NCBI RefSeq assembly: GCF_000975155.1
Contig: NZ_BBRG01000003.1
Span: forward strand, 62,001-126,000
Source: Demequina globuliformis
Lineage (GTDB): Bacteria > Actinomycetota > Actinomycetes > Actinomycetales > Demequinaceae
Length of the DNA stretch: 64,000 nt
Direction: 5' to 3'
Positions within the stretch are counted from its first letter, which is position 1. Every line of letters begins with the position of its first letter. The translations under genes and the position numbers were made by a program. The notes under the pieces were generated by a model. That model saw only the letters and a list, made by a program, of their open reading frames with translations, searched no databases and had not been told where the DNA came from. Below, piece by piece: positions 6,635 to 60,971 of the stretch.

Positions 6635-7924
6635 CTATTGCCCGCCGCAGTACTTGTGGTGCCAGTTGTACGCCGACGTGTCTGTCAGCGACGCCACCTG
6701 GTCAACGGCGACGCGAAGCCGTTCGTCGTCGCCAGACGCGGCGCGGTAGTCGGCCGCGAACTGAGGCTCCATCACGTCCGCGCCGCGCTCGGCCAGCGCC
6801 TTGACCAGCTCTCGCAATACCCGGCGCTGCTTGGTGTACGTGGGGCTCGTCTCACGCGGCGCCATCAAGAAATGCACCGCGATGCCTTTGAGGATCAAAA
6901 TCTCATCGAGGGTGTCCTGGGGGACCACCAAGGTTGCATGATGACGGGTGTGAGGACCCGTGCCGTACTCGGCCTGCGTTGCGGCGATGGTCGCCGAGGC
7001 AAACCGCCCAATCAATTGACTGGTCATGTCCTTGAGCGCAGCGAGTGCTTGGCGGGACCCATCGAAACTATCCGCCCACCACCGGAACTGGCGCAGTCGC
7101 TCGAGTGCCGCCAACAGCGCTGCCTCGTCGCCCCGGCCGTACCACTCGCGCGCGTGGTCAACAATCTCGCGGGCGTGACCGGGATCGCGCAAGACTGACA
7201 ACGACACTTGGCGGTAGACCACCGAGTCCTCGACGTCATGGACGGAGTACGAGATGTCGTCGGCCAAATCCATGATCTGCGCTTCAAAGCTCTGCGCACG
7301 CTCGGGGGCACCCGTACGCAGCCACTCGTAGACCTCGCGGTCATCCGCGTAGACGCCGAACTTGCGGCTGGGCTTACCGTCGGCACGCGCGGGAGCGCCT
7401 TCCTCCCCCCACGGGTACTTCACGGCCGCGTCGAGGCTCGCGCGCGTCAGGTTCAAACCAATCGGGCGGCCCGTGTCCGGGTGCACGGACTTGGGCTCGA
7501 GCCGCGTCAACAGGCGTAGCGTTTGCGCGTTGCCTTCAAAGCCGCCAATGTGGCGCGTGACCTTGTCCAAGGCGCGCTCTCCATTGTGGCCAAACGGGGG
7601 GTGTCCCAGGTCGTGCGCAAGGCATGCCGCATCCACGACGTCTGGCGAGCATCCCAGCGCCTTCGCGAGCTCGCGCCCCACCTGCGCGACTTCCAGCGAG
7701 TGGGTGAGCCGCGTGCGCACAAAGTCACCGCTTCCCAGGCCCAGCACCTGCGTCTTCGCTCCCAGCCTCCGCAAGGCGCTGGAATGGAGAATGCGCGCGC
7801 GGTCCCGCTCAAATGGCGTGCGGTTGGGGCTTTTCGACGGTTCGTGGACCCAGCGCTCCGCGTCGGCCTCGGTGTAGCCCTCGGGCACGGTGCCGCTGGC
7901 GGCTGCATCGCTGTTGTCGTTCAC
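6635..7924 (-). CDS. dgt: Deoxyguanosinetriphosphate triphosphohydrolase-like protein
   Basis: A 429-residue HD-domain enzyme that splits dNTPs to nucleosides and triphosphate. The N-terminus has RTPFERDRARILHSSALRRL, the family entry motif. The HD metal site follows: THSLEVAQVGREL for the first histidine and HDLGHPPFGHNGERAL for the HD pair and downstream His, with a further Asp in DLADDISYSVHDVED. Length fits the non-allosteric actinobacterial group. It starts with GTG and ends near the promoter side of the methyltransferase gene, which lies on the same strand. In many actinobacteria dgt lies next to dnaG, as here within a few genes. Confidence 0.92.
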   Translation of the reverse strand: MNDNSDAAASGTVPEGYTEADAERWVHEPSKSPNRTPFERDRARILHSSALRRLGAKTQVLGLGSGDFVRTRLTHSLEVAQVGRELAKALGCSPDVVDAACLAHDLGHPPFGHNGERALDKVTRHIGGFEGNAQTLRLLTRLEPKSVHPDTGRPIGLNLTRASLDAAVKYPWGEEGAPARADGKPSRKFGVYADDREVYEWLRTGAPERAQSFEAQIMDLADDISYSVHDVEDSVVYRQVSLSVLRDPGHAREIVDHAREWYGRGDEAALLAALERLRQFRWWADSFDGSRQALAALKDMTSQLIGRFASATIAATQAEYGTGPHTRHHATLVVPQDTLDEILILKGIAVHFLMAPRETSPTYTKQRRVLRELVKALAERGADVMEPQFAADYRAASGDDERLRVAVDQVASLTDTSAYNWHHKYCGGQ

Positions 7925-8021: not shown

Positions 8022-8069
8022 TGGAGCATCGGCCGCCAAGGAACCCCCAAAATGGCGGCTCGTGCTCCA
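8022..8069. repeat. REP-like hairpin, copy 1
   Basis: Arms tggagcatcggccgcca (8022-8038) and tggcggctcgtgctcca (8053-8069) pair at 15 of 17 positions around a 14-nt loop. The complement of the right arm occurs exactly as the left arm of a second hairpin at 9814, so this is a dispersed palindromic element rather than a gene-specific terminator. Confidence 0.8.
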
Positions 8070-8187
8070 CTTCGAGGTTGAGGTCAGCCTTGCCGGGGTC
8101 GTCCCCAGGGCGCTACATCAGCACCGGTGTCCACGGATCAGGGCCTCTTGCACCCCTCAGATCCCATGCGCACCTAACGTCGCCTCC

Positions 8188-9111
8188 ATGACACCCGGAC
8201 GCTCGCCAGCTCTGACGCGGCTCCAGCGCGTGCTCGCGAACGCGGAGGTGCCGGTAGCGCGGTCGGACCTCCTAAGTCACTGCTCAGCTCGGACGATCGA
8301 GCGAGCAGTTCACTTGGGACTTGCCGTCCCCACCGGCCCCGGCCTGATTACCGCGCCGCACAATCGCGACACGGTCCTCACACGCGTGACACAAGCACAG
8401 GCATGGATGCCGACCGACGCGCTCATCGCTGGGCCGGCCGCGGCATGGGTGTGGGGCATGCGGCACCTGGACATTCGTGAGATCGACGTCTGCGCACGCC
8501 CCTCTGCACGCCTACGACCGCCGCAGGGGGTCAGAGTGTGGCGCACGTCCGCGTCGATTCACCCCACACGAGTGGGTGCGTTCACGACCGTTCCCAAAGC
8601 ACACGTGCCCGTGCAGGTCTGGGCACGGAGCAGCGCCTTCCGCGATCCCGGTTCCATGCTTGGCGTTGTCCGTGACCTGCGTATCCGTGCCGACTTGTCG
8701 CTGAAGGCACTCGCCCGCTATCCCCGAGTCCCGGACCGCGCCGAGCTGACTACCCTGCTCACCGTCGCGAGCGATGGTGTCACGAGTGCACTCGAGTACA
8801 TCGCGAAGACTCAGGTCTTCACAGGCCCGGAGTGGGAAGCCTGGGTGTGGCAAGGACGCGTCAATGTGCCCGGTCGCGCCGCGGTTGTCGACATGCTGCA
8901 CCGTCAGGCAAGAGTCGCCGTGGAGTTCGATGGAGCGCAATTCCACTCCAGCGATCGCGCGCGCCGTCGTGACCTCGAGCGCGATGCCCTGCTCTCCGCC
9001 GCGGGGTTTATGACGATTCGTTTCACGTACGAAGACGTCACACAGCGACCCGAGTGGTGCCGACAACAAGTCCGCGACAGCCTACGTTCGCGCCGGCGCG
9101 ACTATCCATGA
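8188..9111 (+). CDS. DUF559-type nuclease-fold protein with N-terminal winged helix
   Basis: A 307-residue protein. Residues 1-60 look like a winged-helix segment (LQRVLANAEVPVARSDLL...TIERAVHLG), followed by a middle region resembling AbiEi-like antitoxin C-terminal domains. The last third has VAVEFDGAQFHSSDRARRRD and LERDALLSAAGFMTIRFTYED, the Vsr/DUF559 endonuclease-like core with its acidic E-x-D pattern. Such proteins are widespread in actinobacteria and unproven; some are labelled type IV antitoxin-like, but no partner toxin is adjacent. The ATG at 8188 was preferred to the longer frame, whose first residues overlap the hairpin repeat. Confidence 0.7.
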   Translation: MTPGRSPALTRLQRVLANAEVPVARSDLLSHCSARTIERAVHLGLAVPTGPGLITAPHNRDTVLTRVTQAQAWMPTDALIAGPAAAWVWGMRHLDIREIDVCARPSARLRPPQGVRVWRTSASIHPTRVGAFTTVPKAHVPVQVWARSSAFRDPGSMLGVVRDLRIRADLSLKALARYPRVPDRAELTTLLTVASDGVTSALEYIAKTQVFTGPEWEAWVWQGRVNVPGRAAVVDMLHRQARVAVEFDGAQFHSSDRARRRDLERDALLSAAGFMTIRFTYEDVTQRPEWCRQQVRDSLRSRRRDYP

Positions 9112-9156
9112 TCGGATGCCACGCACGACGACGAGTCGGGGCGTAGCGTGGGTGGC

Positions 9157-9792
9157 ATGGGTGAGGTCAAGGTGTATTGCGCAATGTCCGTCGACGGGTT
9201 CCTCGCGGGGCCGGGAGACGACATCTCGTGGCTCGAGGCGGACCGCCCCTCCTGGGCGCCGATGGCGGCCGGCGAGTGGGCTGCGGTGGATGCCGATGCC
9301 ATCACGTTCGCTGACTTCTACGCTGGCGTGGGCGCGATTCTCATGGGCCGGCGCACCTTTGACGTGGTTCACGGCATGAATGAGTGGTTCTACGGCGACA
9401 TGCCCATCCTGATCGCCACCGGCCGCCCTCTGGCGCAAGCACGCTCGACGGTGAGCTCAGCGTCGGCCCCCATTGCGAATCTCGTTGCGGAGGCTCAGGA
9501 ACTTGCGGGCGACAAGCACGTCTACATCGACGGTGGCTCCGTTATTCGCCAGGCCCTCGACGCCAAGCTGATCGACGAGATGATCGTCACCATCCATCCC
9601 ACCATTCTCGGGGCGGGCCACCCCCTGTTCGCGGGCGCGGAGCAACGCCATGCTGTCACGGTCACCGATGTGCGCCGGTACGGCGATGGCATGGTCCAGG
9701 TGACGATGCGGGCCGCGCGCGAACCCGAGGACCGGTCACCGATTCCGGAGGACGGCGGACCCGCCGAGGAAACGCCCTACGGCCTCGCGTAG
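9157..9792 (+). CDS. Dihydrofolate reductase-like protein (RibD C-terminal domain)
   Basis: A 211-residue protein of the RibD C-terminal/DHFR-like fold. It opens with VKVYCAMSVDGFLAGPGDDI, then GVGAILMGRRTFDVV. The nucleotide-binding stretch is HVYIDGGSVIRQALDAKLID, followed by IVTIHPTILGAGHPLF. Such stand-alone domains bind NADPH and reduce uncharacterised substrates; they are not true folate reductases. The start is either the ATG at 9157 or a GTG three codons upstream. The C-terminus is Pro/Glu-rich (PEDRSPIPEDGGPAEE). It follows the DUF559 gene on the same strand. Confidence 0.85.
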   Translation: MGEVKVYCAMSVDGFLAGPGDDISWLEADRPSWAPMAAGEWAAVDADAITFADFYAGVGAILMGRRTFDVVHGMNEWFYGDMPILIATGRPLAQARSTVSSASAPIANLVAEAQELAGDKHVYIDGGSVIRQALDAKLIDEMIVTIHPTILGAGHPLFAGAEQRHAVTVTDVRRYGDGMVQVTMRAAREPEDRSPIPEDGGPAEETPYGLA

Positions 9793-9813
9793 AGCCGCAG
9801 TGCGCACTGGAAC

Positions 9814-9860
9814 TGGAGCACGAGCCGCCAAACACGCGCGAAGTTGGCGGCCAGAGCTCC
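9814..9860. repeat. REP-like hairpin, copy 2
   Basis: The left arm tggagcacgagccgcca (9814-9830) is the exact complement of the right arm of the hairpin at 8022-8069. The right arm tggcggccagagctcc (9845-9860) is partly decayed. It lies 22 nt after the stop of the RibD-like gene, where it could also stop transcription. Confidence 0.75.
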
Positions 9861-9870
9861 GATTCGCAGC

Positions 9871-9946
9871 GTGGGTGGGGACGCACAGGGTGGGGGTCGC
9901 ACAGGGTGGTGTGGCACAGGGTGGGGACGCACTGGGTGGGGAGTAC
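9871..9946. repeat. G-rich degenerate tandem repeat
   Basis: About five units of 15-17 bp, each of the form gggtgggg plus a spacer like acgcaca. The + strand carries at least eight runs of three or more G separated by 1-8 nt, the pattern expected of a G-quadruplex. It lies between two convergent genes (RibD-like and dusB) and is not coding in any convincing frame. Confidence 0.85.
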
Positions 9947-9984
9947 GGGGCCTAACGGAGGCGCGAGCACAGCGAGCCCGGGAA

Positions 9985-11172
9985 CTAGCCGCCTGACACG
10001 CTCAGTTCCGCTTCGCGGAGCCGTGCCTCGATATCCGGGGTGATGTCCTGAGTGTCGAGCCACCCGTCCGGGCACGATGGGCTCTTGGGAGTCCCCTGGC
10101 GCCCGCGCGGCCCCTCGGCCGCCTCTCCCGGATACGGGGTGTCCAATGGCAGCGTGTTGAGCAGAGCCCGCAACTGCGGCAGCGTCTCGACCAAGCCCAG
10201 GCTCTTGCGGATCTCGCCGCCGACCGGATACCCCTTGAAGTACCACGCCACGTGCTTGCGGATCTCGCGCATTGCCTTGAGCTCGTCGTCGTCGAAAAAG
10301 CTGATCATGAGTTCGCCGTGGCGGTAGATGGTGTCCGCGACCATCCGTAGGTCTGGACGTACTCGCTCCTCGCGGCCCTCGAACGCGGCTTGCAGGTCCG
10401 CGAACAGCCACGGCCGGCCCTGGCATCCACGCCCGACGACTACGCCATCGACGCCGGTGCGCTCCACCATCTCCAGCGCATCCTCGGCCGACCAAATGTC
10501 ACCGTTGCCGAGCACGGGGATCGTGGTGACGGCCTCCTTGAGGCGCGCGATCGCCTCCCAATCAGCGTTGCCCGAGTAGTAGTCGGCAGCAGTGCGGCCG
10601 TGGAGCGCGACCGCTGCCACGCCCTCCGCCTCCGCCATGCGCCCAGCCTCGAGGTACGTGAGGTGGTCGTCATCGACACCCTTGCGCATCTTCACGGTCA
10701 CGGGAACGTCGTAGGGCGCCGCTTCGCGCACGGCGGCACGCACGATGTCGCGGAAGAGGTCCTTCTTCCACGGCAGCACTGCTCCCCCGCCCTTCTTGGT
10801 GACCTTGGGTACGGGGCAACCAAAGTTCATGTCGATGTGGTCGGCGCGGTCCTCAGAGACAAGCATTTTCACTGCGGCGCCAATGGTCGCGGGATCCACG
10901 CCGTACAACTGGACGGACCGGGGCGTTTCATCAGGATCGTGGTGGATGATCCGCATGGACTCGCGGGTGCGCTCCACCAGCGCGCGGCTGGTGACCATCT
11001 CCGCAACATAGATGCCGCCTCCGTGCTCGCGGCACAGGCGACGGAAGGCAGCATTGGTGATGCCGGCCATGGGGGCCAGCACCACGGGGGTGTCGATCGT
11101 GAGGGGCCCAATGTGCAGCGGCGGCAGCACGCGCGCGCCTGCTGCGGGCAGGGCCGATGCGTCAGTCGTCAT
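9985..11172 (-). CDS. dusB: tRNA-dihydrouridine synthase
   Basis: A 395-residue FMN enzyme that reduces uridine to dihydrouridine in tRNA D-loops. It has LAPMAGITNAAFRRLCREHG near the start, the substrate-recognition stretch IDMNFGCPVPKVTKKGGGA with the catalytic Cys, VTVKMRKG, and phosphate-binding VLGNGDIWSAEDA and GVVVGRGCQGRPWLF. The C-terminal helical domain (MREIRKHVAWYFKGYP) binds tRNA. The ATG at 11172 was chosen because homology begins a few residues later and the longer frame adds only Arg-rich shadow sequence. Actinobacteria usually have this single Dus. Confidence 0.95.
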   Translation of the reverse strand: MTTDASALPAAGARVLPPLHIGPLTIDTPVVLAPMAGITNAAFRRLCREHGGGIYVAEMVTSRALVERTRESMRIIHHDPDETPRSVQLYGVDPATIGAAVKMLVSEDRADHIDMNFGCPVPKVTKKGGGAVLPWKKDLFRDIVRAAVREAAPYDVPVTVKMRKGVDDDHLTYLEAGRMAEAEGVAAVALHGRTAADYYSGNADWEAIARLKEAVTTIPVLGNGDIWSAEDALEMVERTGVDGVVVGRGCQGRPWLFADLQAAFEGREERVRPDLRMVADTIYRHGELMISFFDDDELKAMREIRKHVAWYFKGYPVGGEIRKSLGLVETLPQLRALLNTLPLDTPYPGEAAEGPRGRQGTPKSPSCPDGWLDTQDITPDIEARLREAELSVSGG

Positions 11173-49322: not shown

Positions 49323-50251
49323 AGCGCCTCCTGATTCCATGCGACGGTCGCGTCGGGAAGGAAGTAGCGGTCACGGATGAGGTCCGATGCCGTGGCACAG
49401 GCTTGCTGTACGGCTTGCATTTGGTTGCGGAGGTCGTCCAGCACCTCCCTCACCGGCGAGTACTCGAGGGTGGTGCGGGCACGCCCGAGAGCCAATTGGG
49501 CTCGCCCCGCAAGGGTGCGGTTGCGTTCCTCACCTTCGATGCGTGTGAGGAACTCCTCCGCCATGTTGAGGTTGTAGGCGATGGAGCGTGGGAAGTACCG
49601 GTCGATCAGAATGAACTCTGCGGCGCGTTCTTCGACGACGAGGGCACGCACGGTGCGCAGGTATGCCTCGTGCGCTGAGCAGGTGCGCAGCAGCGTGGTC
49701 CAGTCGGGCCCCGTGGTGCCGTCGAGCGAGCGCGTCATGAGCAGCCGGGCGATCATGTCCGCGCGCTCAAGGGAGCGCCCCAGTTCGAGGAAGTTCCACA
49801 CATCGTCGCGCGACGTGGTGGCACTCGCGAGCCCACGCGTAACAGCGGTCCGCTCACGCACCCAGTCAAAGTACTCGTGCGGCCGACGGTGGCCTCCAGT
49901 CCAGCGGCGCAGCTCCATCCTCGTGGTGTTGAGGCTGTGCCACACCTCGGTGGAGATGACCTCGCGCGCCCGGCGCGCATTCTCGCGCGCGGCCATGAGG
50001 GATCCGGCGATCGATGACAGCTGCTCGGGGTCGTAGGCAAGTGTGGCGAGCACATCCCGCTGAGTCAGCACGGCATCGGGCTCGAACGAGACGTTCATGA
50101 CGTTGAGCAGCGATGCGTTGGCGGACGGCTCGTCCACCCAGGGGTCCTCAAGGAGCACATTCAGGTGGACATCGAGCAGGCGCGCGGTGTTATCTGCACG
50201 CTCGACGTAGCGTCCAATCCAAAACAGCGACTCTGCGATGCGGCTCAGCAT
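49319..50251 (-). CDS. Alpha-E domain protein (DUF403)
   Basis: A 310-residue all-helical protein. It opens MLSRIAESLFWIGRYVERAD, the family signature, and continues with DDVWNFLELGRSLERADMIA, which repeats the same E-R-A-D theme. It always travels with a circularly permuted ATP-grasp enzyme and a transglutaminase and is thought to assist them; no activity is known. The ATG at 50251 lies within the end of the ATP-grasp gene; the longer frame is a shadow of its Gln-rich tail. Confidence 0.92.
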   Translation of the reverse strand: MLSRIAESLFWIGRYVERADNTARLLDVHLNVLLEDPWVDEPSANASLLNVMNVSFEPDAVLTQRDVLATLAYDPEQLSSIAGSLMAARENARRAREVISTEVWHSLNTTRMELRRWTGGHRRPHEYFDWVRERTAVTRGLASATTSRDDVWNFLELGRSLERADMIARLLMTRSLDGTTGPDWTTLLRTCSAHEAYLRTVRALVVEERAAEFILIDRYFPRSIAYNLNMAEEFLTRIEGEERNRTLAGRAQLALGRARTTLEYSPVREVLDDLRNQMQAVQQACATASDLIRDRYFLPDATVAWNQEAL

Positions 50252-51858
50252 GACGTGCCCTCCGTCGCGCCAGGGGCCTGCCGGTGTTGCTGTTGCTGCT
50301 GTTGTTGCTGCTGCTGGCCGGCGGCGACATCCTCTGGGTGACTGGACTGCGGGACTGAAGCCATTCCGGACAACTCGATGCGCCCCTCGACGGGCGCCCG
50401 GTGGCGCCGCCACTGACGCGCGCCGCCCAACACCCACGTGTCCTTTGACCCGCCGCCTTGGGAGGAATTGACAATCAGTTGCCCTCGTTCAAGCGCCACC
50501 CGCGTGAGGCCTCCAGGGAGCACCCATTGCTCCTCACCGTCGTTGATCGCGAATGGGCGCAGGTCGACGTGTCGTGGCTCAAGTCCGTCCTCCGTCAGGG
50601 TGGGCACCGTGGACAGTTGAATCACCGGTTGCGCAATCCATCCGCGCGGATCGCGCTGGATTGTCGCGCGTGCCTCTGCCAATTGCGCGCGGCTGGCGTT
50701 CGGACCAATCAACACGCCCTTGCCGCCCGCACCGTCAACGGGCTTGACGACGAGTTCCTCCAGCCGGTCGAGCACCTCTTCGCGCGCCTCGGGTTCCTCC
50801 AGGCGCCAGGTATCAACATTGGGCAAGATCGGCTCTTCTCCCAGGTAGTACCGGGTGAGGTCCGGCATGTAGGTATAGATCAACTTGTCGTCGGCGACGC
50901 CGTTTCCGACAGCGTTCGCGATGGTCACGTTGCCCAGCCGCGCGGCGTTGATGAGACCAGGGGCGCCCAGGGACGAGTTTGGCCTGAACTTCACTGGGTC
51001 GAGGAAGTCGTCATCCACCCGCCTGTAGATGACGTCGACGCGCCGGCGCCCGGCGGTGGTGCGCATGAACACGTGGCCATTGACGGTCTCGAGGTCGCGC
51101 CCTTCCACCAGTTCCACGCCCATGGTGCGCGCAAGCAGGGAATGCTCGTAGTAGGCCGAGTTATAGACACCGGGGGTCAGCACCACCACGGTCGGGTCGT
51201 GCACACCTTCGGGTGCACTCTTGGCGAGAGCCGCCCGCAGCCGGCGCGAGTACTCCAGCACGGGCCGGATGCCCATGGCCCCGTACAGCTCGGGGAACAT
51301 CTGGCTCATCGCGCGGCGGTTGGACAGCACGTAACTCACTCCGGACGGGACCCGCACGTTGTCTTCCAAGACGCGCCAGATGCCTTGACTGTCGCGCACC
51401 AGGTCAATGCCTGACACGTGTACGCGAACTCCGTTGGCGGGTTCGACGCCGGCGACGGCCCGGTAGAAGTACTGGCTCGTCGCAATGAGTTTGCGGGGCA
51501 CCACGCCATCTGTGACGCACCGCTGCGAACCGTAGACGTCCGCCAAGAACGCTTCCAGCGTGCGTACGCGTTGGGCGACTCCGGGCGAGATGATGTCCCA
51601 CTCGTCGCTGCCGATCACGCGGGGAACAATGTCCAGCGGGAACGGACGCTCCTCCCCCGCGTGATCAAAGGTCACCCCCTGCGCGAGGTACGTCGAGGCG
51701 AGAGCCTCTGCGCGGGCGGTGAGGTCCTCGCGTGACATCCGCTCAAGCTCGTCGTACACGCGGCGGTACGGTTCGCGCACCTCACCGTGCACGTCCATCG
51801 CCTCGTCCCACGCCGCCACCGGCGCGTATCCACTCCACGGGGTCGCAGCATCGGTCAT
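50245..51858 (-). CDS. Circularly permuted ATP-grasp protein (DUF404/407)
   Basis: A 537-residue protein likely to ligate a carboxylate and an amine at ATP cost. Motifs include GIDLVRDSQGIWRVLEDNVR with PSGVSYVLSNRRAM, IYRRVDDDFLDP, and the nucleotide site VVKPVDGAGGKGVLIG. SQGGGSKDTWVL near the end is family-specific. The C-terminus is unusual: ten consecutive Gln (near 515-524, mixed CAA and CAG) and a short hydrophilic tail. It heads the three-gene cassette, overlapping alpha-E by 7 nt. Confidence 0.92.
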   Translation of the reverse strand: MTDAATPWSGYAPVAAWDEAMDVHGEVREPYRRVYDELERMSREDLTARAEALASTYLAQGVTFDHAGEERPFPLDIVPRVIGSDEWDIISPGVAQRVRTLEAFLADVYGSQRCVTDGVVPRKLIATSQYFYRAVAGVEPANGVRVHVSGIDLVRDSQGIWRVLEDNVRVPSGVSYVLSNRRAMSQMFPELYGAMGIRPVLEYSRRLRAALAKSAPEGVHDPTVVVLTPGVYNSAYYEHSLLARTMGVELVEGRDLETVNGHVFMRTTAGRRRVDVIYRRVDDDFLDPVKFRPNSSLGAPGLINAARLGNVTIANAVGNGVADDKLIYTYMPDLTRYYLGEEPILPNVDTWRLEEPEAREEVLDRLEELVVKPVDGAGGKGVLIGPNASRAQLAEARATIQRDPRGWIAQPVIQLSTVPTLTEDGLEPRHVDLRPFAINDGEEQWVLPGGLTRVALERGQLIVNSSQGGGSKDTWVLGGARQWRRHRAPVEGRIELSGMASVPQSSHPEDVAAGQQQQQQQQQQHRQAPGATEGTSC

Positions 51859-51944: not shown

Positions 51945-53306
51945 CTAGCTGGGCTTCTCCGCGCCGCGCCTGGCGTAGTACCACCAGGCCACCACGGTGC
52001 CGACGGCGGACAACGCCGTCCACCACCAGAACAGTGTGTAGCTGGGTGTGGAGGCCAGAATGACGGAGAAGAAGAACGGGCCAAAGGCAGCGACCGCGGA
52101 GGTCCACCCAATGACGCCGCCGGACTCGACGCGGTTGAAGATGTACGGCATCTGCTTAAACGTGGACGCGTTGCCGATTCCTGAGAAGAAGAAGATCGCG
52201 AGCATGCCCCAGAGGAACTTCGGGAAGTCATCGGCAGACTCAGGTGACAGTTGCATGGCGGTGTATGCGCACGAGGCCACGAGCCCTGCGCACGAGAGCA
52301 CCGTCACTTTGCCGCCGCCAAATTTGTCAGCGACGGGACCAAAGAGCACGCGGGCCGCTGAGCCCACGAGGGCGCCCAAAAACGCGTACTGCAGCGGATC
52401 GATTCCCGCGTCCCCGAACACGCCGGTGCCAAACGTCTCATCGATCAACAGGGCGAAGACCGCCGCGAAGCCTGAGAAGGCACCGAAGGTGATGACATAC
52501 AGGAGCGTCATCATCCACGTGTGCTTGTTCTTAAAGATCACGAACTGGTCGGTGACCTTCGACACCTTCATGGGGATCGAACGCAGGTAGAGCCACGAGA
52601 TCACGATGCCAATCACGGTGAGCGACGCCCATGCGTAGCTGGCGTTTTGGTACCACACCTCCTCAGTCGCCCCAGTGGCGTCGTCGACCAGCGTCTGCGA
52701 GGGACCGATCACTCCCGATGCGAATCCGCCCAGCAGCATGAAGCTCACGATCCAGGGAGTCGCCAACTGCACAATGCTGACCCCGAAGTTACCCACGCCT
52801 GCCTGGATGCCGAGCGCTGTTCCGGCCTTCGCCTTGGGAAAGAAGTAGGAGGTAGACGGCATAAAGCCCGCGAAGGCGCCGCCACCAATTCCGGTCGCGA
52901 AACTCAGGACGAGCAACACCCAGTAGGGAGTGTCGGGGTTCTGAATGGCCACCGCCCAGCCGATGATCGGGATCAACAAGAGCGCCATGGTGTAGGTGAC
53001 GAGCTTGCGCGTGCCGAGGACGGGCGGCAGGAACGTCCACACCATCCGCAGGAACCCGCCGGCAAGCCCGGGCATAGCCGTGAGCCAATACAACTGGCTA
53101 CTTGAGATCTCAAAACCGAGATCGTTGAGCACAGGCGCTATCGCGGAGACCAAGAACCAGACGATGAAGCACAGGATGAGGTCAAAGGTCGTGATGGCGA
53201 GCGTGCGCCATGCGCGCCGCTTGTCCCAGGAGGGCCCCTCTGAGTCCCAGTCCTTGAGCCAGTCCTGGCCGGTCCTCGCTGGAACGGCGGCTGCTGCATC
53301 AGACAT
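51945..53306 (-). CDS. narK: Nitrate/nitrite transporter, NarK type
   Basis: A 453-residue major facilitator with 12 helices. The nitrate signature is GIGGGAFAGFMPSTSYFFPK, with a second in LGIQAGVGNFGVSIVQL. It could bring in nitrate or exchange nitrite. The ATG at 53306 was picked because the helices and the homology begin soon after; the longer frame adds Pro-rich shadow. It is divergent from the regulator-narGHJI genes and shares their control region. Length fits NarK rather than a NarK1-NarK2 fusion. Confidence 0.93.
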   Translation of the reverse strand: MSDAAAAVPARTGQDWLKDWDSEGPSWDKRRAWRTLAITTFDLILCFIVWFLVSAIAPVLNDLGFEISSSQLYWLTAMPGLAGGFLRMVWTFLPPVLGTRKLVTYTMALLLIPIIGWAVAIQNPDTPYWVLLVLSFATGIGGGAFAGFMPSTSYFFPKAKAGTALGIQAGVGNFGVSIVQLATPWIVSFMLLGGFASGVIGPSQTLVDDATGATEEVWYQNASYAWASLTVIGIVISWLYLRSIPMKVSKVTDQFVIFKNKHTWMMTLLYVITFGAFSGFAAVFALLIDETFGTGVFGDAGIDPLQYAFLGALVGSAARVLFGPVADKFGGGKVTVLSCAGLVASCAYTAMQLSPESADDFPKFLWGMLAIFFFSGIGNASTFKQMPYIFNRVESGGVIGWTSAVAAFGPFFFSVILASTPSYTLFWWWTALSAVGTVVAWWYYARRGAEKPS

Positions 53307-53429
53307 CGGCGTCTGCCTTTCTGTCGTGGCTTGATTCCTAGCGTGGCCCGGTTTCGAGGGATCTGCCACCGGAACGTCGCCACAAGCCCTCCCGGGAGGT
53401 GATGCCTGCCGTGGACCCTCCGACACATG

Positions 53430-53464
53430 TTTTTTACACCTCCGTCAGAGTTCCTTGTAAAAAA
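53430..53464. promoter_or_regulatory. AT-rich inverted repeat in the narK/regulator gap
   Basis: ttttttaca (53430-53438) and tgtaaaaaa (53456-53464) are exact complements, spaced by 17 nt. They sit 36 nt before the regulator ATG and 124 nt before narK. They may be an operator, or two divergent -10-type elements (tgtaaaa on each strand). This is the most AT-rich spot of the region. Confidence 0.6.
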
Positions 53465-53500
53465 TGCACGGTCCCACTCCCACGTGCTAGGACAGTGGAT

Positions 53501-54238
53501 ATGAGCCCCGACGGCGAGAGCATCGGTCGTGCATTGCGGACAGCGGCGTCCCACAGCAACGCGGCCCCATCACCGGGCATCTCCACGCGCCGCGCCGTCG
53601 CGCAGGGCCTGCGCCACCACGACTCCGCTGTCACCGTCACTGAACTCGCACGCCGCCTCGACCTGCATGCGAACACCGTTCGCAATCACCTCGACTCCCT
53701 CGCAGACGACGGGCTCGTCGAGCGAAGCCAGCGGCGCAGTGGTCGCCGGGGGCGCCCCTCAACGGTCTACGCGCCGCTGTCGACCGGCTTACTCCCGCTC
53801 GAAGAACTGTCTGCCGAACTCACTGCAGCGCTCGACGCGTGCGATGCCTCCGCCATCGCAAAGACCTCCGCGCGCGCATGGAAACCCGCACGTACCCAGG
53901 CGGCAGCCGAGCCCGATGAGGCCGTCGACCACGCGGTCGAGGTCCTCCGAGACATCGGTTTCGACGCCAGCCGCAATCGCGTGGGTGACGAGATCACGAT
54001 GACGAATTGCCCCTACGCAAGCCTCTTTCCGGACCATCCCGAGATCTGCGCGATTCACGCCGAACTGATCCACAACACGCTCAGCGTCAGCGGTCAGCCG
54101 GTCTCGGTCAAAGCCGTCGACGTGTGGGTGCGTCCCGGCATGTGCCGCGCCCGCCTGAACAGGGCCGATGTTTCCCCCCGCTTCACCGTTCCCTCCCATC
54201 CCGTCAACGACGACACGACCGCACGCGAGGAGCCTTGA
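53501..54238 (+). CDS. SufR/ArsR-like (COG2345) regulator with C-terminal cysteines
   Basis: A 245-residue regulator. A winged helix fills residues 40-90 (VTVTELARRLDLHANTVRNH, then GRRGRPSTVY). The C-terminal part holds TNCPYASLFPDHPEICAIHA and VRPGMCRARL, with Cys170, Cys183 and Cys215 likely to ligate an Fe-S cluster, as in SufR relatives; an additional Cys114 lies in the linker. It has no Pfam name I can give with certainty. The stop overlaps the narG start (TGATG), so it is cotranslated with nitrate reductase and probably controls it. Confidence 0.75.
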   Translation: MSPDGESIGRALRTAASHSNAAPSPGISTRRAVAQGLRHHDSAVTVTELARRLDLHANTVRNHLDSLADDGLVERSQRRSGRRGRPSTVYAPLSTGLLPLEELSAELTAALDACDASAIAKTSARAWKPARTQAAAEPDEAVDHAVEVLRDIGFDASRNRVGDEITMTNCPYASLFPDHPEICAIHAELIHNTLSVSGQPVSVKAVDVWVRPGMCRARLNRADVSPRFTVPSHPVNDDTTAREEP

Positions 54239-57200
54239 TGACCACGACAGAACCCACCGATGCCGGCATCGCCGGAAACTTCTTGGTGAGTGCCGGCCGG
54301 TTTCTCCACCGCGGCGAGGTCTCCGACGACTTGCGGACGGTCACGCTTGAGGGCGGCCGAGACGCAGACGTCTTCTACCGCGACCGGTGGAGCCACGACA
54401 AAATTGTGCGCTCGACGCACGGCGTCAATTGCACCGGCTCCTGTTCGTGGAAGGTGTACGTCAAAGACGGCGTCATCACGTGGGAAACGCAGCAGACCGA
54501 CTACCCCACGACCGGGCCCGACAGCCCCGAGTACGAACCGCGGGGGTGCCCACGCGGTGCGGCCTTTAGTTGGTACACGTATTCGCCCACCCGGGTGAAG
54601 TACCCGTACATCCGGTCGGCCCTCCTGGAGGCCTACCGCGCCAAGAAGGTGGACCACCCCGACCCCGTCGACGCCTGGGCGGCCTTGCAAGACGACGACA
54701 TCGCACGCCGGGGATATCAGCGTGCGCGCGGCAAGGGCGGCATGGTGCGCGCCTCGTGGAAGGAAGTAAAAGAGATCGCGGCCGCCGCACACGTCCATAC
54801 GGCCAAGCGACACGGCCCTGACCGCATCTTCGGCTTCTCACCCATCCCTGCAATGTCGATGGCGTCCCACGCCGCGGGAAGTCGCTTCATTTCGCTGATG
54901 GGCGGCTCCATGTTGTCGTTCTACGACTGGTACTGCGATCTCCCCATCGCGTCCCCTCAGGTGTTCGGCGACCAGACCGATGTGCCCGAGTCTGCCGACT
55001 GGTACAACGCGAGCTACCTGATCATGTGGGGAGCCAACGTCCCCGTGACGCGCACCCCCGACGCGCATTTCATGACCGAGGCGCGCTACCGCGGGCAGAA
55101 GGTCGTCACGGTCTCCCCCGACTACGCGGACAACACCAAGTTTGCAGACGAGTGGCTCAATCCCCACCCGGGGACGGATGGCGCCATGGCTATGGCGATG
55201 GGCCACGTCATCCTCAAGGAGTTCTTCGTTGAGCGGCAGGTCCCGCGCTTTGTCGACTACGTCAAGCGCTACTCGGACCTGCCCTTTTTGGTGTCGCTGC
55301 GTGAACACGACGGTGCGTGGGTTCCAGACAAGTTCGTGACTGCCGCGGACCTCGGGGATACCAGCGAAAACGCAGCCTTCAAAACCGTCCTCATTGACGG
55401 GACCACCGGACAACTCACGGTCCCGAACGGCACGCTCGGCGATCGATTTGGGCAGCAGGGCGAGGGCAAGTGGAACCTCGACCTGGAGGGAATCGACCCC
55501 GCCCTTTCGCTGTACGGAGCGACCGGCACCGACACCCTTGAGGTCCTCCTCCCGCGCTTCGACGTCAACCAAGACGAGGGCGAGGGCGGGACCGCGCACC
55601 GCCGCGGCGTCCCCGCGGGTGCCTTGGACACAGCATCGGGACAGCGGCGTGTCACGACGGTCTACGACCTCATGCTCGCGCAATACGGGGTTGGCAGGGA
55701 GGGCCTCCCCGGCGACTGGCCGGAGGGGTACGACGACCCCGCGCCGTACACGCCGGCCTGGCAGGAGGAAGTGACCGGGGTGAAAGCGTCGCTCGTCGAG
55801 CGGGTGGGTCGAGAATTCGCGGAAAACGCGGAGCAGTCAGGCGGGCGGTCAATGATCATTCTGGGTGCCGGCACCAATCACTGGTATCACTCGGACGAGA
55901 CCTATCGCACATTTCTGACCCTTATCACCCTGACCGGCTGCCAAGGTGTGAATGGCGGCGGCTGGGCGCACTACGTTGGCCAAGAGAAGTGCCGACCCGT
56001 GACAGGGTGGGCGACGCTCGCCAATGCGCTTGACTGGTCGCGGCCCCCGCGGCACATGATCACGACGGCATGGGCCTACCAGAACACCAACCAGTGGAAG
56101 TACGACGCGCTGGGCCCGGAGGCCATTGCCTCCCCCCTGGGCAAGGGGATGTTTAAGGGCAAGTCGATGATCGGCACCCTTGCTCAGTCCGCACGGTCCG
56201 GATGGATGCCCTCCTACCCCACGCTCAATGTGAACTCCCTCGACCTCGGGGATGCAATCAAGGCTTCTGGACAAAGTGCCGGCGACTACTTGGGCCCCAA
56301 ACTCAAGTCTGGAGAGATCGCCTTTGCGGTGGAGGACCCTGATGCCGAGCAGAACTGGCCGCGAGTCCTCACGGTCTGGCGCGCCAATCTGCTGGGTAGC
56401 TCTGCGAAGGGAAACGAGTACTTTCTTCGCCACCTTCTAGGAACCGACCACGCCGTCGATGCCGACCACACCGCGCCAGACAAGCGGACCCCAGACGTCG
56501 TGTGGCGCGACGATCCTGACGGAGGCAAACTCGACCTCCTCATTGACATCGACTACCGCATGACGAGCACGGGCGTGTTCTCAGACATCGTGCTGCCCGC
56601 CGCGACGTGGTACGAGAAGCACGACTTGTCGTCGACCGACATGCACCCGTTCGTCCACGCGTTCACACCTGCCATCGCCCCTCCGTGGGAGACCAAGAGC
56701 GACTACGACACTTTCCAAGAACTTGGGCGTGAAGTGAGCCGGCTGGCCGTGGGCCACCTCGACACGCGCACCGACCTCGTGTGTGCGCCTCTCCAGCACG
56801 ACACGCCGGACGCGATGGCCGTACCCGGCGGCGTGGTGCGGGACTGGAAGGACGAGGGCACCGAGGTGATTCCCGGGGTCACAGCCCCCAAGTTCGTGCT
56901 CGTCGAGCGCGACTACACGGCGATCGGGGACAAGATGAGTTCCATCGGCCCCCTCATCGAGAAACTCGGGACCGCGACCAAGGGCGTGAAGTTCAATCAA
57001 GCGCCCGAGGTCGAGCTCCTCGGCCGCATCAACGGCGTCATCGCGGACGGACCCATGGCAGGCCGTCCGTCAATCACCACCGCCCAGGAAGCCTGCGAGA
57101 TGATCCTCGCCTTGTCCGGCACCACCAATGGCCGTGTGGCGGTCGAGGGTTTCCGGGACATGGAAAAGCGCACGGGCCAGCGCCTGGCGGACCTCGCGGA

Positions 57201-57942
57201 GGACCACGAGGGCAAGCGCATTACGTTCGCCGACACCCAGTCGCGACCGGTGCCTGTCATTACGTCGCCCGAATGGTCCGGCTCCGAACACGGTGGGCGC
57301 CGGTACACCGCGTTCGCGATCAACGTTGAGCGACTCAAGCCATGGCATACGCTCACGGGTCGCCAGCAGTTCTTCCTCGATCACGACTGGATCAGCGAGG
57401 TGGGAGAACAACTGCCGACCTACCGGCCGCCACTGAACATGGCGCGCATCTCCCAGGATGGACCACAGGCCGACGGCGCGGCAGTGGCGGTGCGGTACCT
57501 CACTCCTCACTCGAAGTGGTCCATTCACTCGAACTACCAGGACAACCAGTACATGCTGTCGTTGTCGCGCGGCGGACCCGACGTATGGATGAGTCCGCAA
57601 GACGCGGAGGCGATTGGCGTCAAGGACAACGACTGGATCGAGGCCTACAACCGCAACGGCGTGGTTGCGGCACGAGCAGTCGTCTCCCACCGCATGCCCC
57701 AGGGCACTGTGTACATGTACCACGCCAAAGATCGCCTGGTCGACGTGCCGCTCACCGAGCGCAGCGGCAAGCGCGGAGGCATCCACAACTCACTCACTCG
57801 CCTGATCCTCAAGCCCACGCACCTGATCGGCGGCTACGCGCAGTTCTCCTTCGCCTTCAATTACTACGGGCCCACGGGCAATCAGCGGGACGAAGTAACG
57901 CTCATCCGCCGTCGTTCCAACCAGGAGGTGCAGTACCGATGA
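54238..57942 (+). CDS. narG: Respiratory nitrate reductase alpha subunit
   Basis: A 1234-residue molybdopterin enzyme that reduces nitrate to nitrite on the cytoplasmic side. The FS0 cluster ligands are His61, Cys65, Cys69 and Cys104 (HGVNCTGSCSWK, EPRGCPRG). The Mo ligand is Asp234 in FYDWYCDLPIASP. It also has VPVTRTPDAHFMTEARYRGQ, a long conserved stretch. Length equals that of NarG. The ATG overlaps the regulator stop. Its stop overlaps narH (ATGA). Confidence 0.97.
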   Translation: MTTTEPTDAGIAGNFLVSAGRFLHRGEVSDDLRTVTLEGGRDADVFYRDRWSHDKIVRSTHGVNCTGSCSWKVYVKDGVITWETQQTDYPTTGPDSPEYEPRGCPRGAAFSWYTYSPTRVKYPYIRSALLEAYRAKKVDHPDPVDAWAALQDDDIARRGYQRARGKGGMVRASWKEVKEIAAAAHVHTAKRHGPDRIFGFSPIPAMSMASHAAGSRFISLMGGSMLSFYDWYCDLPIASPQVFGDQTDVPESADWYNASYLIMWGANVPVTRTPDAHFMTEARYRGQKVVTVSPDYADNTKFADEWLNPHPGTDGAMAMAMGHVILKEFFVERQVPRFVDYVKRYSDLPFLVSLREHDGAWVPDKFVTAADLGDTSENAAFKTVLIDGTTGQLTVPNGTLGDRFGQQGEGKWNLDLEGIDPALSLYGATGTDTLEVLLPRFDVNQDEGEGGTAHRRGVPAGALDTASGQRRVTTVYDLMLAQYGVGREGLPGDWPEGYDDPAPYTPAWQEEVTGVKASLVERVGREFAENAEQSGGRSMIILGAGTNHWYHSDETYRTFLTLITLTGCQGVNGGGWAHYVGQEKCRPVTGWATLANALDWSRPPRHMITTAWAYQNTNQWKYDALGPEAIASPLGKGMFKGKSMIGTLAQSARSGWMPSYPTLNVNSLDLGDAIKASGQSAGDYLGPKLKSGEIAFAVEDPDAEQNWPRVLTVWRANLLGSSAKGNEYFLRHLLGTDHAVDADHTAPDKRTPDVVWRDDPDGGKLDLLIDIDYRMTSTGVFSDIVLPAATWYEKHDLSSTDMHPFVHAFTPAIAPPWETKSDYDTFQELGREVSRLAVGHLDTRTDLVCAPLQHDTPDAMAVPGGVVRDWKDEGTEVIPGVTAPKFVLVERDYTAIGDKMSSIGPLIEKLGTATKGVKFNQAPEVELLGRINGVIADGPMAGRPSITTAQEACEMILALSGTTNGRVAVEGFRDMEKRTGQRLADLAEDHEGKRITFADTQSRPVPVITSPEWSGSEHGGRRYTAFAINVERLKPWHTLTGRQQFFLDHDWISEVGEQLPTYRPPLNMARISQDGPQADGAAVAVRYLTPHSKWSIHSNYQDNQYMLSLSRGGPDVWMSPQDAEAIGVKDNDWIEAYNRNGVVAARAVVSHRMPQGTVYMYHAKDRLVDVPLTERSGKRGGIHNSLTRLILKPTHLIGGYAQFSFAFNYYGPTGNQRDEVTLIRRRSNQEVQYR

Positions 57943-59582
57943 AGGTCATGGCTCAAGTCGGCATGGTGATGAACCTCGACAAATGCATTGGCTGCCACAC
58001 CTGCTCCGTCACGTGCAAGCAGGCGTGGACCAATCGTGACGGCGTTGAGTACGTCTGGTTCAACAACGTGGAGACGCGCCCTGGCCTGGGGTACCCACGC
58101 GCCTATCAAGATCAAGAAAAGTGGAAGGGCGGCTGGGAGCTCACCAAGCGAGGGAAGCTCAAGCTCAAGCAAGGTGGGCGCATCAAGCGCCTGGCCACCA
58201 TCTTTTCGAACCCCCTCCTGCCGGAGGTCAAGGACTATTACGAGCCTTGGACGTACGACTACGACACGCTCCTGAACTCTCCCTCGACCGAGCACACTCC
58301 CGTCGCGACTCCCCGATCTGCGATCTCCGGCGAATCCATGAAGATCCAGTGGTCGGCGAACTGGGACGACAACCTGGGCGGCGCACCCGAGTACGCCCCG
58401 CAAGACCCGGTCGTGAAGAAAATCAAGGACGATGTCACGGACCGCATCAAGTTCGAGTTCGAGCAGGCGTTCATGTTTTACCTCCCGCGTATCTGCGAAC
58501 ACTGCTTGAACCCCTCCTGTGTGTCGTCGTGCCCGTCGGGAGCGATGTACAAGCGGGAGGAAGACGGCATTGTGCTCGTCGACCAAGACGCGTGCCGCGG
58601 CTGGCGCCAGTGCGTGACCGGGTGTCCGTACAAGAAGGTCTACTTCAATCACAACACCGGAAAGGCCGAGAAGTGCACCATGTGCTACCCGCGCATCGAG
58701 GCCGGCCAGCCAACCGTGTGCTCGGAAACATGCGTGGGGCGCCTTCGGTACCTGGGCCTGTTCCTGTACGACGCTGACAGGGTCACGGCAGCGGCCTCAA
58801 CGCCAAACGAGCAGGATCTCTATGAGGCCCAGCTGGACCTGATCTTGGACCCCCACGACCCGGCCGTGATCGCACAAGCCCGCAGGGACGGGATCCAAGA
58901 GGATTGGCTGGAGGCGGCCAAGAAGTCCCCCGTGTACACGCTCGCGAAGGAGTACCGGGTAGCGCTCCCGTTCCATCCCGAGTACCGCACTATGCCGATG
59001 GTCTGGTACATCCCACCGCTCTCGCCGGTCGTTGACGCATTGCGCGAGACGGGCAACGACGCCGAAGACGCCGACAACCTGTTCGGTGCGTTGCGCTCGC
59101 TTCGCATCCCCGTCGAGTACCTCGCCGAGCTCTTCACTGCAGGCGATGTCGCGCCCGTCTTGCGCAGCCTCGACACGCTGTCGGCCATGCGCGCCTACAT
59201 GCGGGACAAGAACATCGGCAACGACACGGATGACACGATTCCGGCGCGGGTGGGGCTGTCGGAGGCCCAGATGCTTGCGCTGTACCGCCTACTCGCGGTC
59301 GCGAAGTACGAGGACCGCTACGTGATTCCACCCGCGCACGCCGAGGTCGCTGCTGACCTCGACGAGATGGGCTGCGCGCTGGACGGAGAAGGCGGTCCGG
59401 GCCAGTTCGCGGCACCACCTCCGCCGCAGCGCGTGAGTGCCGAGAGTTTCCACATGCTCAAGGCCGTCAGAGACGAGCAGCGGTATGGCGCGGCCGTGAC
59501 CTCTGCGACGACGGATTTGCCCCACTGGAACGGCAAAGGGGTCGCTCTGGGGATGCCAAAGGTGAGGAAGAGCGATGACTGA
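57939..59582 (+). CDS. narH: Respiratory nitrate reductase beta subunit
   Basis: A 547-residue iron-sulfur protein carrying electrons to NarG. Cluster ligands: CIGCHTCSVTCK (Cys16, 19, 22, 26), CEHCLNPSCVSSCP, CRGWRQCVTGCPYKK (the Trp marks the 3Fe-4S site), and CTMCYPRIEAGQPTVCSETC. The C-terminus extends normally. The ATG at 57939 overlaps the narG stop; the longer frame is the shadow of narG. It is followed by narJ with an 8-nt overlap. Confidence 0.97.
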   Translation: MKVMAQVGMVMNLDKCIGCHTCSVTCKQAWTNRDGVEYVWFNNVETRPGLGYPRAYQDQEKWKGGWELTKRGKLKLKQGGRIKRLATIFSNPLLPEVKDYYEPWTYDYDTLLNSPSTEHTPVATPRSAISGESMKIQWSANWDDNLGGAPEYAPQDPVVKKIKDDVTDRIKFEFEQAFMFYLPRICEHCLNPSCVSSCPSGAMYKREEDGIVLVDQDACRGWRQCVTGCPYKKVYFNHNTGKAEKCTMCYPRIEAGQPTVCSETCVGRLRYLGLFLYDADRVTAAASTPNEQDLYEAQLDLILDPHDPAVIAQARRDGIQEDWLEAAKKSPVYTLAKEYRVALPFHPEYRTMPMVWYIPPLSPVVDALRETGNDAEDADNLFGALRSLRIPVEYLAELFTAGDVAPVLRSLDTLSAMRAYMRDKNIGNDTDDTIPARVGLSEAQMLALYRLLAVAKYEDRYVIPPAHAEVAADLDEMGCALDGEGGPGQFAAPPPPQRVSAESFHMLKAVRDEQRYGAAVTSATTDLPHWNGKGVALGMPKVRKSDD

Positions 59583-60204
59583 GAACATTGCAGCGGCACG
59601 GCTCGCAGCAGCGTGGCTCCTGTGCTACCCCGATGACGACCTGTGGGAGCGCCTCGATGAGATCGAGGCCGTGTGCCGCCAGGCGCCCACAGCCGTCAGC
59701 GGTCCCTTGCTCACGTTCATCGCGCACCTGCGGGCCGAGGGCCTTGGGCCAGTTCAACGCCACTACGTGTCCACCATCGACACCAAACGCCGCGCGTGCC
59801 CGTACCTGAGCTATTGGACCGACGGCGATACCCGCAACCGGGGCTTAGCGTTGCTGCGTTTCAAGCAGGCCTACCTCAGACACGGGTGGGAGCTTGGCCC
59901 GGAAGAACTGCCCGATCACCTCGCGGTGGTACTTGAGTTCACCGCACGCGGCGACCAACTGACGGGTGAGGCCCTGCTGGTGGAGCATCGAGTGTCGATC
60001 GGCCTGTTCCGCGAGGCACTCGACAAGTACCACTCGCCCTACGCCTCCGTCGTTGATGCCATGCTCGCCACCCTTCCACCCATCACGGACGAGATCCGCG
60101 AGCGTATGCAGTCTCTCGCCAGGATGGGCGCTCCTCAAGAGACCGTCGGACTCGACCCGTTCTCGCAGACACTGGCGCTCGAACCGTCTGGAGGCCGCCG
60201 ATGA
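59575..60204 (+). CDS. narJ: Nitrate reductase assembly chaperone
   Basis: A 209-residue TorD-like chaperone that holds NarG until its cofactor is in place. It has LAAAWLLCYPDDDLWERLDE, the helical core with VSTIDTKRRACPYLSYWTDG and GDTRNRGLALLRFKQAY, and PDHLAVVLEF. It overlaps narH by 8 nt and narI by ATGA, so the four genes are a single translational block. Confidence 0.95.
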   Translation: MTENIAAARLAAAWLLCYPDDDLWERLDEIEAVCRQAPTAVSGPLLTFIAHLRAEGLGPVQRHYVSTIDTKRRACPYLSYWTDGDTRNRGLALLRFKQAYLRHGWELGPEELPDHLAVVLEFTARGDQLTGEALLVEHRVSIGLFREALDKYHSPYASVVDAMLATLPPITDEIRERMQSLARMGAPQETVGLDPFSQTLALEPSGGRR

Positions 60205-60971
60205 TTCTCGCCGACGTCGCCGCGACCGAACCGTCTGCGGCCATGGAGATTTTGTGGATCGCTCTGCCCTACGTGGTGATGGCGACCATGATTACGGGCC
60301 TGATCTGGCGTTACCGCTACGACAAGTTCGGGTGGACCACTCGGTCAAGCCAGTTGTATGAGAAATCCATTCTGCGCATCGCGTCGCCGCTGTTTCATTA
60401 CGGCATCCTCGCGGTCATCGCAGGGCATTTCCTTGGCCTCATGATTCCCGAGTCGTGGACCGAGGCGCTCGGGATCTCTGAACACACGTATCACACCCTC
60501 ACGGTGCCTCTGTCGTTGACCGCGGGCGCATGCACCATCGTGGGCTTCGCCCTCCTGATCTACAGGCGACGCACCGTCACGCGGGTCCTCGAACGCACCT
60601 CCACCGGCGACAAGATCATGTACGTGTTCCTGGGTCTTGCCATCGTGCTGGGCGTGTTGGTGTCCTGGTACGCGTCCGGCATCTTTGGCGAGGGCCACAA
60701 TTACCGCGAAGACGTCGCGGTGTGGTTCCGATCAGTCCTGGTTTTCCAGCCCAATGGGGCCATCATGGCTGCCGCGCCGTTGCCGTTCCAACTGCACGCC
60801 ATCGCTGGGATGCTGCTGTTCGCGATCTGGCCATTCACGCGTCTGGTCCACGTGTTCTCCGTGCCGCTGCAATACCTTGCGCGTCCATATGTGGTCTATC
60901 GCAAGCGCGAACCGCACCCCACAGGATCGCGCGCACCGCGCCGGGGGTGGGAACCATCGCGGCGCGACTGA
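60201..60971 (+). CDS. narI: Respiratory nitrate reductase gamma subunit
   Basis: A 256-residue membrane cytochrome b that oxidises menaquinol. Five helices are visible (near 17-35, 64-83, 97-117, 135-155 and 185-208). Heme ligand histidines appear in ASPLFHYGILAVIAGHFLGL and FQLHAIAGMLLFAIWPFTRL with VHVFS. The N-terminus is slightly longer than in E. coli. It ends with a basic tail (PRRGWEPSRRD). Confidence 0.95.
   Translation: MILADVAATEPSAAMEILWIALPYVVMATMITGLIWRYRYDKFGWTTRSSQLYEKSILRIASPLFHYGILAVIAGHFLGLMIPESWTEALGISEHTYHTLTVPLSLTAGACTIVGFALLIYRRRTVTRVLERTSTGDKIMYVFLGLAIVLGVLVSWYASGIFGEGHNYREDVAVWFRSVLVFQPNGAIMAAAPLPFQLHAIAGMLLFAIWPFTRLVHVFSVPLQYLARPYVVYRKREPHPTGSRAPRRGWEPSRRD

Follow-up and report, generated by a model that had tools for sequence, protein, structure and literature searches.

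FNR/CRP, NsrR, and WhiB proteins are cluster-based regulators that respond to O2 or NO. The closest described counterpart of the regulator reported here is ArnR (Cgl1185) of Corynebacterium glutamicum, which, according to the accessible part of a recent report, combines a winged-helix-turn-helix domain with Cys179, Cys193, and Cys223, binds a [4Fe-4S] cluster, and represses narKGHJI and hmp until nitrosylation abolishes its DNA binding (PMC12343034). Variants with Cys-to-Ala replacements neither retain the cluster nor bind DNA; O2 degrades the cluster-bound protein only slowly, and it is NO to which the protein responds (PMC12343034). The same part of the report describes a TRAPPC3-like sensor domain with a conserved histidine whose role is not known and about 0.5 Zn per ArnR protein, and notes a zinc-bound form of TRAPPC3; FNR/CRP, NsrR (Rrf2), and WhiB proteins likewise sense respiratory gases through clusters (PMC12343034) but belong to other families. 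In the accessible part of PMC10436651, no passage on the ArnR operator site was found. Among the matches listed for ArnR and nitrate, the publications that by title or abstract deal with this regulator concern Corynebacterium, and the others appear unrelated. No publication joining COG2345 with nitrate reductase was found, and the literature searched, mostly without subscription papers and partly in excerpt, yielded no description of a regulator gene placed upstream of narG.

Such a layout is present in the 2.6-Mb genome of Demequina globuliformis. Within the 64,000-nucleotide stretch analyzed here, referred to as the window, an ArnR-type winged-helix regulator of 245 amino acids is encoded at positions 53501 to 54238 (plus strand; stop codon TGA at 54236 to 54238), between a divergent narK-type nitrate/nitrite transporter gene (51945 to 53306, minus strand; TIGR00886, 263.7 bits, under the cutoff of 311.7) and narGHJI on the plus strand. 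The mechanically listed open reading frame of the regulator begins further upstream, at 53399; the start taken here is 53501. The four reductase genes are narG, for the alpha subunit (54238 to 57942; TIGR01580), narH (57939 to 59582; TIGR01660), narJ (59575 to 60204; TIGR00684), and narI (60201 to 60971; TIGR00351). The regulator and narG share one base: in the sequence TGATG, the A of the TGA stop codon is also the A of the narG ATG (54238 to 54240). A GAGGAG hexamer within the final codons of the regulator (54227 to 54232, plus strand), 5 nt from the narG ATG, reads as a Shine-Dalgarno-like element for narG. A first-pass annotation of this DNA had described a three-cysteine winged-helix protein whose gene overlaps the narG start by one base, which the reading frame, the Pfam match given below, and the TGATG sequence confirm; the translational coupling to narG that it proposed is supported by the same overlap.

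Pfam detects the winged helix alone in the regulator (HTH_20, E 1.4e-11), at residues 29 to 74 (53585 to 53722, plus strand). Other helix-turn-helix matches fell below their Pfam cutoffs (Rrf2, 17.3 bits versus 30; HTH_Crp_2, 15.2 bits versus 27), and among the NCBIfam matches listed, no model exceeded its cutoff. The region that follows, approximately residues 95 to 223 (53783 to 54169, plus strand), is predicted to form a TRAPP/Bet3-like sensor domain. In an AlphaFold2 model built from 42 sequences (mean pLDDT 84, pTM 0.64), this domain matched TRAPP chains over 120 to 128 residues, with the highest Z scores for 2cfh (10.8 over 124 residues, rmsd 3.0) and 2bjn (10.7) and values of 9.6 to 10.3 for the others. 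BcsD chains match the same predicted domain too, with Z scores of 9.7 to 10.0. This ranking, TRAPP chains included, covers structures that Foldseek had listed, and Foldseek's own top rows for the model were winged-helix proteins. The predicted TRAPP-like fold agrees with the published ArnR model, as far as that model is described in the accessible text (PMC12343034).

The putative cluster ligands lie within this predicted domain: Cys170 (codon at 54008 to 54010), Cys183 (54047 to 54049), and Cys215 (54143 to 54145), together with His186 (54056 to 54058), all on the plus strand and identified from alignments. His186 is a candidate fourth ligand; a conserved histidine is also noted for ArnR in the accessible text (PMC12343034). 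All four residues are invariant in a 12-row alignment of the window protein and 11 relatives. In a 111-row alignment, collected with a search profile that was itself derived from proteins of this kind and so biased toward this signature, the CCHC combination occurred at the corresponding positions in 12/12 rows of the clade that includes the window protein, in all 31 rows of a clade from a genus labeled g211, in all 21 further narG-adjacent rows, a group formed by choice, and in 39 of the 44 remaining rows. The signature is thus not specific to nar regulators, and the signal sensed could differ among the proteins that carry it. Altogether, 31 of 33 narG-adjacent rows keep CCHC, where the adjacency of one (L006) is presumed because the contig ends there and three (L052, L057, and L127) are divergent from narG. 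The two rows without it, which lack all four residues and are counted among the 44, come from the sister genomes G078 and G121. In both of these genomes, the copy lacking the Cys and His residues (L123 and L125, respectively) lies immediately 5' of narG, and an intact CCHC copy is found a few kilobases away. The expectation of the earlier annotation that relatives keep the Cys170/Cys183/Cys215 pattern was thus borne out in 12/12 clade rows, and the absence of the cysteines from orthologues, which it had named as a refutation, was not seen apart from these two copies.

The same annotation had set this layout apart from that of ArnR, and on this point it was mistaken, since ArnR is itself a winged-helix protein with three cluster cysteines that controls narKGHJI in response to NO, as the accessible part of the report states (PMC12343034). 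For comparison, we used a locus (L107) from g211, a genus presumed to be Corynebacterium from the gene order narKGHJI-regulator; there, the regulator gene lies about 0.7 kb after narI and, if GTG is the start codon, the cysteines are at residues 179, 193, and 223. Since the cysteines of C. glutamicum ArnR bear the same numbers (PMC12343034), L107 served as a stand-in for ArnR. In a BLASTP comparison, the window protein matched the L107 protein with 24% identity over 213 residues (E 5e-15), and a profile-profile comparison of the window group with the g211 group (10 rows) gave an E value of 2.6e-29. The histidine of a CxxH motif that begins with the second cysteine is present in 12/12 rows of the window clade and 31/31 rows of the g211 clade, and we infer that it is the conserved histidine referred to in the accessible ArnR text (PMC12343034). 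ArnR, as far as it is described there, and the window protein thus have in common a winged helix, a three-cysteine sensor domain with a conserved histidine and a TRAPP-like fold, and linkage to nar genes. They differ in the spacing of the cysteines (13/32 in the window protein versus 14/30 in ArnR) and in gene position, as the window regulator comes first in regulator-narGHJI with narK divergent, whereas arnR lies downstream of narI in narKGHJI. The regulons may also differ: hmp belongs to that of ArnR, whereas a globin family search of the source genome (E 0.001; a control search matched 3/14 genomes) gave no globin/hmp match, so that this second ArnR target is not evident here.

In a quick tree, for which identical rows were merged to give 111 and the poorly filled row L021 was kept, the window clade (12 rows; SH-aLRT 98) and the g211 clade (31 rows; SH-aLRT 92) were separate, and SufR stood on its own long branch (SH-aLRT 100). 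A topology that holds the window and g211 clades together was disfavored (AU p 0.028, for a group chosen after inspection of the tree), and hence narrow orthology to corynebacterial ArnR is not claimed. By its separate clade, its position upstream of narG, and the missing globin match, the window regulator falls outside the group of corynebacterial ArnR orthologues; by its winged helix, the three cysteines of its C-terminal domain, the CxxH histidine, the predicted TRAPP-like fold, and the nar linkage, it belongs to the ArnR type. At least eight changes in narG adjacency, as a raw count, are needed on the tree. With regard to the scope of the alignments, alignment A3 included 41 of 76 prepared loci plus the window, with L137 and L145 left out as near-copies and L186 as cut, and one alignment of relatives excludes L041, L006, and L043.

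The linkage to narG recurs beyond Demequina. Of the 394 genomes surveyed in the class, 146 have narG and 370 have a match to the 12-row profile; the wider family is therefore nearly universal, and only its position is informative. A same-strand relative ends 2 to 214 nt 5' of narG at a minimum of 21 narG places in at least 20 of the 146 narG-bearing genomes, with the pairs picked by eye and both cysteine-less copies (G078 and G121) included, and a divergent relative lies 299 to 352 nt from narG in at least three class genomes. Among 47 genomes of the family, narG was found in 8; 6 have a close regulator (E value of 4.8e-44 or lower) and a seventh has a distant one. The close regulator occurred in 5/8 genomes with narG versus 1/39 without it (Fisher p 0.0002, relatedness ignored). 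In one family genome that has narG and no close regulator (G032), a distant relative lies directly before narK-narG. Within the best 80 of 576 relatives in a named collection, narG was directly downstream in 12 of the top 13 (which include the near-copies L137/L138 and L144/L145) and within the fetched stretch in 6 of the other 67, which suggests that most lower-scoring relatives have other partners. Among these six, an ArnR-like position after narI was seen in Actinomadura viridilutea (L164) and Mycobacterium barrassiae (L193), and the g211-clade loci observed beside narI were L089 and L092. Eight plasmid records contained relatives (28.5 to 32.7% identity), and none of five pattern matches in viral contigs was confirmed as a relative.

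Upstream of the regulator, an extended -10-like element, TGCTAGGAC (53485 to 53493, plus strand), ends 7 nt before the ATG and aligns with TGGTAGAAA of relatives. In a scan that also takes in the -10 form TGTGGTAG, 17/17 clade spacers have TG-N-TA, mostly as TGTGGTAGAAA, with its first base 15 or 16 nt upstream of the start codon; in the window, the frequency of this five-letter pattern is 0.0004 per position. A sigma-70 scan of 53280 to 53560 returned two terminator-like sites but nothing resembling a promoter, so the case for the -10 element is its conservation alone. With an extended -10 at this position, transcription would begin at the start codon itself, and the regulator mRNA is thus probably leaderless. 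Leaderless messages are common in actinobacteria. In two congeners that have divergent narK and narG genes with no regulator between them (G003 and G010), TG-N-TA(G/A) occurs 101 and 67 nt, respectively, before narG. Among 12 spacers from other genera, 8 carry ATTAAA(G/C)CA(C/T)A on the opposite strand at 70 to 72 nt, which is readable as a TGTGCTTTAAT-like -10 element directed toward narK.

The narK/regulator spacer also contains the exact 9-bp inverted repeat that had been reported just upstream of the regulator, and we could confirm it: TTTTTTACA (53430 to 53438) and TGTAAAAAA (53456 to 53464), separated by 17 nt, form a repeat that spans 53430 to 53464. In 100 shuffles of the window, no match within three mismatches was obtained, and when the 110-nt spacer was dinucleotide-shuffled 200 times, a T-run dyad of this length arose in 0/200 and any 9-bp repeat in 1/200, so the repeat is more than chance. 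The window has 34 exact repeats of at least 9 bp with a spacer of at most 20 (nested ones counted), of which this one alone has AT-rich arms; the sole T6 and A6 runs of the 64 kb lie in these arms, and at its spacing, the repeat is single copy in the genome, with up to three mismatches allowed. The earlier annotation had asked for conservation of this palindrome and had named its non-conservation, coupled with lack of binding, as a refutation; as to conservation, the outcome was largely negative. T-run dyads with differing spans were found in 5/17 clade spacers (the window, L133, L138, L143, and L102), sequence and span being matched in a single congener (L133), the only spacer of the 17 to share the position and 35-bp span with the window, and we rejected the palindrome as a conserved operator. 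The TG-N-TA element is better conserved across the clade spacers. No T-run dyad was found before narK of an ArnR-bearing g211 genome, where the best inverted-repeat arms were 7 bp and of other sequence. The spacers of G003 and G010, with no regulator between narK and narG, lack the T/A dyad, which speaks for the ArnR-type reading favored below. It is from its position only that we infer an operator. The left arm begins 71 nt before the start codon, where relatives have the -10-like site for narK, and hence may be a narK promoter element as much as an operator half; on the minus strand, a weak terminator-like match takes its T-run from the right arm. Two other spacers contain inverted repeats of their own. 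In G554 (L102, positions 3855 to 3906), two perfectly matching 23-bp arms enclose a 6-nt loop; this inverted repeat is situated between the regulator and the divergent narK side, and its ends abut the two -10-like elements. In G010 (L216, positions 7028 to 7052), a different dyad, TTTACGCA-9-TGCGTAAA, lies between narK and narG; the nar genes of this genome, which is listed as 50% complete, read in several frames.

The layout, the CCHC signature, the predicted fold, the recurrent narG linkage, and the conserved promoter element are seen here directly, and we consider it probable that the window protein is an ArnR-type, NO-responsive repressor of nar that acts on narK and its own operon. The cluster, the dimer, the NO response, and the repression are drawn by analogy with ArnR. 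A dimeric winged-helix repressor would hold a [4Fe-4S] cluster in its C-terminal TRAPP/Bet3-like domain through Cys170, Cys183, Cys215, and probably His186, and its cluster-bound form would bind the narK/regulator spacer and keep both narK and regulator-narGHJI off. Under falling oxygen, NO formed in nitrate reduction would nitrosylate the cluster and the protein would leave the DNA, so that both transcripts rise. Since it heads the operon, the regulator would also control itself; its mRNA is probably leaderless, and translation of narG would be coupled to that of the regulator. The suggestion of the first-pass annotation that the protein may sense NO is plausible, given the NO response of ArnR described in the accessible report (PMC12343034).

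That annotation also named oxygen, and a direct O2 sensor whose cluster is destroyed by O2 in FNR-like chemistry, so that the switch would be O2 and not NO, possibly in an activator, is an alternative that we judge to be unlikely. Nitrate is respired under anoxic conditions, three cysteines with a weak fourth ligand could make the cluster O2 labile, the missing globin match means that NO handling as in C. glutamicum is not evident, and the center of the dyad, some 54 nt upstream of the start codon, would suit an activator; against these points stands the related ArnR, with its slow degradation by O2 and its response to NO, as far as the accessible text describes them (PMC12343034). Somewhat less likely still would be a structural role of the CCHC residues in binding zinc or another metal, with the TRAPP-like pocket sensing a small molecule and the nar coupling serving nitrate, nitrite, or another redox signal. 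The zinc found with ArnR and in TRAPPC3 would fit such a role, as would the presence of narG near no more than 6 of the 67 lower-scoring relatives, but the loss of both cluster and DNA binding in the Cys-to-Ala variants of ArnR, reported in the same accessible text, argues against it (PMC12343034).

The relation to SufR bears on a further alternative, that of a regulator of Fe-S cluster biogenesis that lies beside narG by chance. SufR has the same overall architecture, a winged helix with C-terminal cysteines, and characterized SufR holds a [4Fe-4S] cluster (cited in the accessible part of PMC12343034); the profile-profile match of the window group to SufR (E 6.7e-17) makes for an uneven comparison, as the SufR profile has three rows only. 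The arrangement that the earlier annotation called SufR-like is so in this broad sense. It lacks the extra cysteine of the SufR LCQxHC motif and the CEAE motif: where SufR of the source genome reads LCQxHC...CEAE...C, the window protein reads NC...CxxH...C. The pattern was CCEC in 3/3 SufR rows (one from the source genome and two from g211), next to which SufB was identified from neighboring open reading frames. The model TIGR02702 (SufR_cyano) scores 28.5 bits on the window protein, over the helix-turn-helix portion only, versus a cutoff of 178.8, and the source genome has a separate SufR beside sufB. SufR identity was rejected on the grounds of the motifs and the separate SufR, and a SufR-type function is very improbable.

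The ArnR-type repressor that we favor is ordinary in kind, as ArnR is already known as an iron-sulfur NO sensor. What the locus adds is an extension of ArnR-type control of nitrate respiration, characterized in Corynebacterium in the publications found, to Demequina and other actinobacteria, a candidate fourth cluster ligand in the histidine of CxxH, where SufR has Glu, and, in its compact divergent promoters, test material for how the operator is read. A broader reading, which we offer tentatively and hold to be doubtful as a whole, is that a large actinobacterial family of regulators with a CCHC cluster site, sister in type to SufR with its CCEC, was co-opted on several occasions to provide nar operons with a cis-encoded, self-limiting switch at their head, where the CxxH histidine would be a labile fourth ligand that gives the NO response and the leaderless message coupled to narG would tie the dose of the sensor to that of the reductase.

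Some minor observations concern individual genomes. In the single-contig genome G037 (contig C1, positions 2004774 to 2008452), narG is found in two overlapping frames, owing to a frameshift or an assembly error. Demequina sp. B12 (G038, L139; NZ_JAPEHU010000002.1) has retained a window-clade regulator but has no narG match, which counts against the reading favored here. Its regulator (L139, positions 6827 to 7603) is convergent with nirD/nirB, for nitrite reductase (8023 to 10973), and the flanks of the nar block in the window (the open reading frame at 50245 to 51858 and the one near 61053) adjoin in B12, with the regulator after the second. The former reading frame (minus strand) has a triplet run at 50287 to 50316 that codes for about 10 glutamines near the C terminus, and a similar glutamine run is also found in B12.
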